From: Haloarcula hispanica ATCC 33960
GTDB lineage: Archaea > Halobacteriota > Halobacteria > Halobacteriales > Haloarculaceae
NCBI RefSeq assembly: GCF_000223905.1
Contig: NC_015948.1
Span: forward strand, 1,240,001-1,304,000
Direction: 5' to 3'
Length of the DNA stretch: 64,000 nucleotides
Part shown: in pieces, positions 56,026-57,209 of the stretch
Numbering within the stretch: the first letter of the stretch is position 1
How the letters are laid out: each line of letters begins with the position of its first letter
The notes under the pieces: generated by a model
The model's input: the letters and a program-made list of their open reading frames with translations, nothing else
Database searches by the model: none
Told to the model about the DNA's origin: nothing
Made by a program: the position numbers and the translations under genes

Positions 56026-56140
56026 GGTGAACGCTAACTCCGTACTGCCATTAGGGGTTTCCGTTTTGGCAGTCTGAGAGACAGACTTCTGACAGGTGGC
56101 AGCCAACGTTTTTAACCCCGGGTCGCCTGCCACTGAGCAA

Positions 56141-56440
56141 ATGCCACGCTGGGAGTGCGACATCGAAGGGGACGACAGACAGTTCGACCGCGTCGAGGAG
56201 CTTATCATCCACCAGTCGGTTGAGCATGACCGCATCGAGTGCAAGGTCTGCGGTGCCGTCGTCCCCGACGGCTACTTCGCTATCAAGCACGCCTTCGACG
56301 AACACTCCCGCGCGGAGTACGTTCGCGCCTACGACGCCTCCGCCGCCGAGGTCCGTCGTCGTGAACAGATAAAAGAATCCGTTGAGGCCGCCGCCAACAT
56401 GAGCGAGGTCATCGACCGATTGGAAGGCGGCGAAGCGTAG
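56141..56440 (+). CDS. Small C2H2-type zinc-finger protein
   Basis: A 99-residue haloarchaeal protein with a compact finger, ECKVCGAVVPDGYFAIKHAF then DEHSRAEYV: C-x2-C, then two His four apart. The first 35 residues are acidic (PRWECDIEGDDRQFD), the last 40 are helical. A TATA-like GTTTTTAA at 56108-56115 lies about 29 bases before the ATG, giving a leaderless message. Could bind DNA or protein. It is divergent from the PHP gene. Confidence 0.75.
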   Translation: MPRWECDIEGDDRQFDRVEELIIHQSVEHDRIECKVCGAVVPDGYFAIKHAFDEHSRAEYVRAYDASAAEVRRREQIKESVEAAANMSEVIDRLEGGEA

Positions 56441-56567
56441 CAACTACCGCTGTTTTACGACGGTGCCTGACTTTGCTCGACAATGATTGCCAACTAGTCT
56501 GAAAACGCTTGATTGCTCCCTTGCGGGTCGCTACGCATCCGTTCGAATTGCACGAGACCCGTTCGCC

Positions 56568-56638
56568 TACCGCTCTTCGGAGTCGAGAACGCGAATCTGG
56601 TCGCCACGCACGGTGACCGGAATCGGGACCGTCGCCTC
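56568..56638 (-). repeat. Degenerate copy of the 3' end of spt5
   Basis: Matches 56772-56842 with only a few base changes, all silent in the spt5 frame. Read on the minus strand it still encodes EATVPIPVTVRGDQIRVLDS then EER and stop, the last 23 residues of Spt5. Beyond 56638 the likeness ends abruptly. Confidence 0.8.
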
Positions 56639-56665
56639 CTACTGTTCCACCTTTTTCTTCGTCGG

Positions 56666-56761
56666 GTGCGCTCACTGTGCTCGCGCACCACTCCTCGAAA
56701 AACGTGGGCGAAAACGCGGGCCCTCAGTCGTTCAGGCCCGTGAACTACCGGCTCCGCCGGT
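56666..56761 (-). terminator. Three hairpins downstream of spt5
   Basis: Inverted repeats with arms GTGCGC/GCGCAC (56666-56688), CGGGCC/GGCCCG (56717-56740) and ACCGGC/GCCGGT (56747-56761, 3-base loop). The last is 11 bases past the spt5 stop. No long T run follows, so a terminator role is tentative; recombination debris is the alternative. Confidence 0.35.
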
Positions 56762-56771
56762 GGATATGGGT

Positions 56772-57209
56772 CTACCGCTCTTCGGAGTCCAGCACTCGAA
56801 TCTGGTCACCACGCACGGTAACCGGAATCGGGACCGTCGCCTCGTACAGTTCGACGGTGACCTGGTCCTTGCCCTCGTCGATGCGCTGGACCTGCGCCTT
56901 CTCGCCCTTGAACGGGCCGGCGATGAGTTCGACGATGTCGCCCTCCGCGATGCCTTCCACGTCCGGTTTCGGCGAGAGGAAGTGCTCGACTTCCGCCATC
57001 GAGGACTCCCCCTGCACGACGCCGTTGGCGTGGGGGATCTCGTCGAGGATGCGGTCGAAGACGTTGTGATCGTCCGCTTCGACCATCACGTAGCTCGTGA
57101 GCGAGTCCGGCGCGAGCGCGGCGTGGATCTCGTCTTCCTCGCGGGAGATGATCATGTCTGCGACGGTGCGTTCCTGGCTGGCCGTGGTTTTGACTGCGTA
57201 GATTCCCAT
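56772..57209 (-). CDS. spt5: Transcription elongation factor Spt5 (NusG)
   Basis: Binds RNA polymerase clamp and keeps it processive, 145 residues. The NGN domain covers residues 1-85 (MGIYAVKTTASQERTVADMI, LTSYVMVEADDHNVFDRILD). The KOW domain follows (EGDIVELIAGPFKGEKAQVQ, then YEATVPIPVTVRGDQIRVLD). Its start is 4 bases after the secE stop, so both are one transcript. In other haloarchaea, ftsZ1, secE and spt5 are neighbours; here a receptor pair separates ftsZ from secE. Confidence 0.95.
   Translation of the reverse strand: MGIYAVKTTASQERTVADMIISREEDEIHAALAPDSLTSYVMVEADDHNVFDRILDEIPHANGVVQGESSMAEVEHFLSPKPDVEGIAEGDIVELIAGPFKGEKAQVQRIDEGKDQVTVELYEATVPIPVTVRGDQIRVLDSEER

Follow-up and report, generated by a model that had tools for sequence, protein, structure and literature searches.

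The 3' end of spt5 is present twice in the Haloarcula hispanica DNA analyzed here (a stretch of 64,000 nucleotides, hereafter the window), and the second copy is quite probably the product of a small non-coding mobile hairpin that inserted behind spt5 with a long target duplication of variable length. Dozens of core genes of Haloarcula and its relatives are followed by elements of the same family.

The complete spt5 gene (145 aa, from the list of open reading frames, with Spt5-NGN and KOW domains) occupies positions 56772..57209 of the minus strand and ends ...GAGGCGACGGTCCCGATTCCGG...GAGCGGTAG. A repeat search paired 56567-56650 with 56772-56855 (90% over 84 nt), and the minus strand of 56567-56638 reads GAGGCGACGG...GAGCGGTAG, i.e., the final 23 codons and the stop codon of spt5. 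This downstream copy lies 133 nt from the end of the gene, and it differs from the last 72 nt of the gene itself (the copy in use; 56772..56843, minus strand) at five positions (GTT/GTC, GGT/GGC, CGA/CGC, GTG/GTT, and CTG/CTC), all of them third codon positions and silent. The 12 nt ahead of the copy (GTGGAACAGTAG) are part element and part ambiguous junction and contain two more differences; we take them to mark the junction because they align less well and because their TAC-to-TAG difference is common to genome G018 and Haloarcula amylolytica (G006). Beyond the stop codon of the copy, the likeness to the sequence after spt5 ends and the native intergenic flank begins (56441..56566, no strand assigned), which is homologous to the sequence right after spt5 in element-free genomes. 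Next comes a convergent zinc-finger-like gene (56141..56440, plus strand; ORF 56096-56440, with the start placed at ATG 56141) that is the same neighbor in relatives. The spt5 repeat arrangement was also seen in other species. A first-pass annotation of this DNA had reported a 71-bp copy at 56568-56638 that carries silent changes only and then stops resembling the surroundings of spt5. The copy is real, its position was right to a base or two (72 nt at 56567-56638), and both further observations held; the 133-bp element between the copies (56639-56771), however, had been missed.

The inserted element (56639..56771, minus strand) comprises hairpin 1, hairpin 2, two T tracts, hairpin 3, and an end made of GGTGG plus ∼8 nt. 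Its predicted fold, with three hairpins and a minimum free energy of -55.2 kcal/mol, was better than those of 200 out of 200 shuffled sequences. When relatives were searched with the inter-copy region, many partial matches to that region alone were returned. The family has the layout CACGTTTTT-[variable stem]-AAAAAGGTGG, and the corresponding search pattern (CACGTTTTT, 26-56 nt, AAAAAGGTGG) matched the window once, at the conserved hairpin core (56647..56706, minus strand), with no match in 100 shuffles; there were 10 matches in this genome, and the reversed control gave none in 146 genomes. Element length is 133 bp at spt5 here and 85-130 bp elsewhere. Many copies occur in related Halobacteria, mainly Haloarculaceae: a stricter pattern was present in 29 of 76 genomes of that family and gave no match outside it in a class-level sample, and a relaxed pattern found scattered copies in other families too. 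Comparison of 42 distinct, equally long cores showed a practically invariant outer stem (CCAC-TTTTT/AAAAA-GTGG), including an unpaired G-G, and an inner stem in which GC, CG, and TA pairs were exchanged as compensatory changes. Three places in the core show tandem G-A/A-G oppositions, and the pair between two of them flips from G-C to C-G. These alignments show conservation of structure, as RNA or single-stranded DNA. An imperfect inverted repeat of CCACGTTTTTC and GAAAAAGGTGG surrounds hairpin 3. The insert varies at its left end, which, in contrast to ordinary transposons, lacks conserved sequence; the junction always falls at the right end, where there are 0-10 nt of filler. With its two T tracts and hairpins, the element is probably also a transcription terminator. 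Rfam 15 covariance models gave no match up to an E value of 0.5 across five loci, IMG/VR viral contigs held no exact match to the strict pattern, and no paper text naming the motif was found in the PMC literature. At L114 (the glutaredoxin-like site of G006) and at G000:C3:2825398, extra hairpins lie within the core or between TTTTTCGCC and CACGTTTTT; elements appear to grow through nested hairpins.

Duplicated gene ends are tied to this element at many loci. In a first set, 62 of 120 distinct elements had a copy of the 3' end of the upstream gene within 0-10 nt, compared with 5 of 595 when flanks were swapped between sites. The enlarged set yielded 78 flush copies of the upstream gene's end among 160 distinct elements, many of whose sites are orthologous between species and so are not all independent. 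None of 55 other, element-free genes in the window had a downstream copy of its 3' end, which rules out chance similarity; 2 of 94 element-free genes at other loci had one, both being array members. An assembly artifact is unlikely, as many independent genomes and loci show the same arrangement. Targets recognized with Pfam include spt5 in several genera, malic enzyme/PTA, ornithine carbamoyltransferase (OTC), an ArgZ-like protein, PurM, citrate synthase, a Rad3-like helicase, and a glutaredoxin-like protein; IleRS was recognized by sequence. The duplicates range from 26 to 256 bp. Six of the 10 elements in this genome have duplicated gene ends, and the remaining four adjoin the stop codon of a convergent gene. 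Automatic gene calls were misled by GC-rich antisense frames, and only stop-codon distances were used further.

Several sites are compound. Arrays reach three elements and four gene ends, as at spt5 of G092 (L268, G092:C2:2825425-2825841), and two or three elements alternate with three or four gene ends at L144 (G000:C3:827682-827890), L056, and L059; the two elements of the L059 array differ in the inner stem, and the flanking gene ends are nearly identical. At citrate synthase (L215/L217, in G015 and G009), an element with its duplicated end is followed by a second element flush with a convergent stop codon.

The origin of the second copy was examined by comparing filled and empty sites. At G092:C2:1898206, an insert of ∼88 bp lies between perfect 48-bp direct repeats (39 nt of gene end, including TGA, and 9 nt of UTR), and G104, which is 98% identical to G092, has one copy and no element at the same site; two changes common to both G092 copies are absent from the empty G104 site. 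A duplication of ∼54 bp was found at G092:C2:2970908 relative to G079, again with shared changes. The third case is purM, where G104 is empty, its gene body is identical at 392 of 399 positions to that of filled G092, and the duplication amounts to ∼150 bp. The second purM copy in G092 has four differences, three of them amino-acid changing, and is a spare copy starting to decay. The element thus arrives, in these three comparisons, with a direct duplication across the stop codon (48, ∼54, and ∼150 bp), and dispersed copies have only the inserted stretch in common; such a pattern is what insertion with a long target duplication leaves. The changes shared by two copies could also stem from later gene conversion, a process documented as efficient in the polyploid haloarchaeon Haloferax volcanii (PMC11276520). 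Many Haloarcula spt5 loci have neither element nor second copy, and their downstream flank begins at the stop codon; the filled and empty genomes available for spt5 are less closely related than G092 and G104. Checks at three loci showed that the second copy does not in general equal the native tail.

We infer that the element moves by transposition and that insertion preceded exchange at this spt5. Insertion behind the gene would duplicate a stretch of the target (26-256 bp across the family) that spans the stop codon, the upstream copy restoring the gene and the downstream copy becoming a spare end; the gene would be unharmed because the duplication includes its stop codon. The flanking duplicates would then serve as homology arms between strains, permitting cassette exchange, the overwriting of either copy, and arrays of the form (gene end-element)n-gene end, and recombination between the copies could remove the element without a trace. 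More tentatively, and with rather less than even confidence, we propose a general picture in which a previously undescribed, transposase-free haloarchaeal hairpin settles precisely behind genes, makes long variable duplications that keep it from ever breaking the gene, can be removed tracelessly, spreads between species by means of its own gene-end copies, and seeds arrays behind essential genes.

Exchange between strains has left its mark at spt5. The first-pass annotation had claimed that a working, diverged spt5 was involved and had suggested comparing the copy with spt5 of other strains. A decaying copy should not change solely at silent sites, and the silent-only pattern bears out the involvement of such a gene. 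In the comparison, the resident gene was not the closest to the copy (six mismatches in 75, vs four each for the genes of H. amylolytica and G021). The body of the gene is closest to that of H. amylolytica (8 differences in 363, 98% identical), whereas the resident tail differs from it at 8 of 75 positions and from other lineages at 0-4 of 75, matching G018 in full and G009, G021, and G027 to within 3-4 of 75. Measured against H. amylolytica, identity is 93% for the element, 95% for the copy, 89% for the gene tail, and 63% for the flank. The element and downstream flank of G018 are 1-2 nt from those of this genome, and in G018 the copy and gene tail are identical save at the junction. On these short sequences, the end of the working gene looks imported, more so than the copy, a direction that we infer; recombination between strains did act here, as the annotation held, but the odd part is the resident tail and not the copy. 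Later recombination of this kind is the best explanation for the silent differences at spt5.

Other loci show similar exchange. In the pooled duplicates, differences between copies are biased to third codon positions (63/45/206 for first, second, and third), a bias that is underestimated owing to a few mis-assigned frames, and this dominance indicates that recombination with working alleles is frequent. At the glutaredoxin-like gene of the filled genome G019, the downstream flank and the last part of the second copy are of the empty G015 type and the gene tail and element of the G023 type, which places one breakpoint inside a 36-bp copy. At malic enzyme/PTA, a single element-copy junction stands on three downstream flank types, each of which is also found empty in other species. 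The IleRS gene-end duplicates at L201 (G003) and L070 (G060) are 225-234 bp long with mostly silent differences (33 silent and 14 replacement; 20 and 6), which suggests exchange across species.

Such exchange is what the first-pass annotation had in mind when it read the copy as a scar of recombination on the spt5-ftsZ side. If foreign spt5-side DNA had simply left a second, silently diverged gene end, with the element incidental, then the silent-only differences, the mosaic kinship of gene body, tail, element, and flank, and the clear cassette exchange at the glutaredoxin-like locus would all be accounted for. We nevertheless consider this origin unlikely, for many unrelated genes show the duplication together with a single element family and hardly any without the element, and in the three filled/empty comparisons the duplicate comes from the local gene. 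As the source of the copy, recombination between strains is largely refuted by the empty sites, the more probable source being the target duplication of an element that recurs at dozens of genes; it survives as a second step, visible in the mosaic of gene body and tail.

Comparably improbable is homology-facilitated illegitimate recombination. In this scheme, an incoming DNA whose end is the hairpin would pair on its left side with the gene, and joining of the hairpin end to some random site farther upstream in the gene would duplicate the tail. The constant junction at the element's right end and the frequency of silently diverged alleles among the copies agree with this idea, but both copies are the same local allele in recent cases, and the arrival of the element at a new gene is left unexplained. 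Replication slippage at a pre-existing hairpin, re-copying gene end and hairpin in tandem, is very unlikely. Hairpins promote slippage, and arrays with two or three elements and three or four gene ends may have arisen in this way; as a founding event, tandem duplication is refuted by empty sites devoid of any element. Slippage would also put an element after each copy, whereas the last gene end is usually followed by no element, its flank being the same as in element-free relatives. Site-specific integration classically leaves a duplicated gene 3' end with the complete gene on one side, as seen here, and integrative elements do use gene 3' ends (e.g., a tRNA in Haloquadratum); a remnant of such an element is still harder to credit, given the many unrelated targets, the variable length and start of the copy, the lack of an integrase or cargo, and junctions that have no common core sequence. 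The junctions would also suit reverse transcription primed at the duplicated site, but no finding is specifically in its favor.

Insertion with a target duplication, the reading that we prefer, does not account for every placement. In the enlarged set, 82 of 160 copies had no flanking duplication; for 44 of these 82, only 0-6 nt separate the element's end from a convergent gene's stop codon, eight sit where an antisense tRNA has its 3' end, and 23 lie no more than 90 nt from a same-strand gene's start. Among the 58 duplicate-less copies of the first set, 23 were at a convergent stop codon, vs 20 of 480 at shifted positions. Plain insertion with duplication does not predict placement at convergent stop codons or antisense tRNA ends, nor is the exact position of the right end beside functional boundaries predicted by random insertion. 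Loci with an element at a convergent stop codon or antisense tRNA end include L146, L148, L252, and L253.

On the preferred reading, one element family accounts for an entire class of haloarchaeal gene-end duplications that had been puzzling, and it is a case in nature of insertions by which essential genes are spared, the target duplication restoring them. The gene-end duplicates also mark breakpoints of interspecies gene exchange. Few insertion sequences are known to make long target duplications of variable length.

We place the element among the small non-autonomous mobile repeats, and for each group where this was tested a defining feature is missing. Like a canonical MITE it is short, non-coding, and multi-copy (85-133 bp, 10 copies, none in the reversed control), but its target duplication is neither short nor fixed (26-256 bp; 48, ∼54, and ∼150 bp in the filled/empty comparisons). 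REP-type bacterial palindromes are dispersed intergenic hairpins with conserved ends, as are these elements; the long target duplications differ, being a feature for which REPs are not known. Unlike a gene-end integrative element, the hairpin has no site-specific target with a fixed core. Short transposase-free palindromic repeats of haloarchaea comprise SMRs (80-110 bp in Haloquadratum walsbyi), PATEs, and MITEs; SMRs and PATEs make no target duplication, SMR-A elements target other mobile elements, and the MITE duplications of H. walsbyi follow a known transposase (PMC3119063). Our element resembles SMRs in size and palindromic nature and differs in that a flush duplication accompanies 78 of its 160 copies, and its targets are 3' ends of core genes where SMR-A hits mobile elements. 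IS1549 and IS1634 leave long variable direct repeats (8-514 bp) for which, according to a 2008 review, no mechanistic model had been put forward (PMC2266710), and a 90-bp element with long variable duplications offers a simple system for their study. The duplications of 26-256 bp are similar; the haloarchaeal element, however, has no transposase gene and a poorly conserved left end. Mobile ORF elements of fungal mitochondria carry a foreign gene 3' end (atp6 in Allomyces; atp6, atp9, cox2, and nad3 in Glomus) (PMC3630166). They encode a homing endonuclease, for which the non-coding haloarchaeal element of 85-133 bp is too short, and they import the gene end, whereas the haloarchaeal duplication can be local. 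The resulting arrangements are nonetheless alike, with a complete gene upstream, an insert, and the displaced native end downstream, and in both systems the differences between ends are largely synonymous and exchange takes place between species (PMC3630166).
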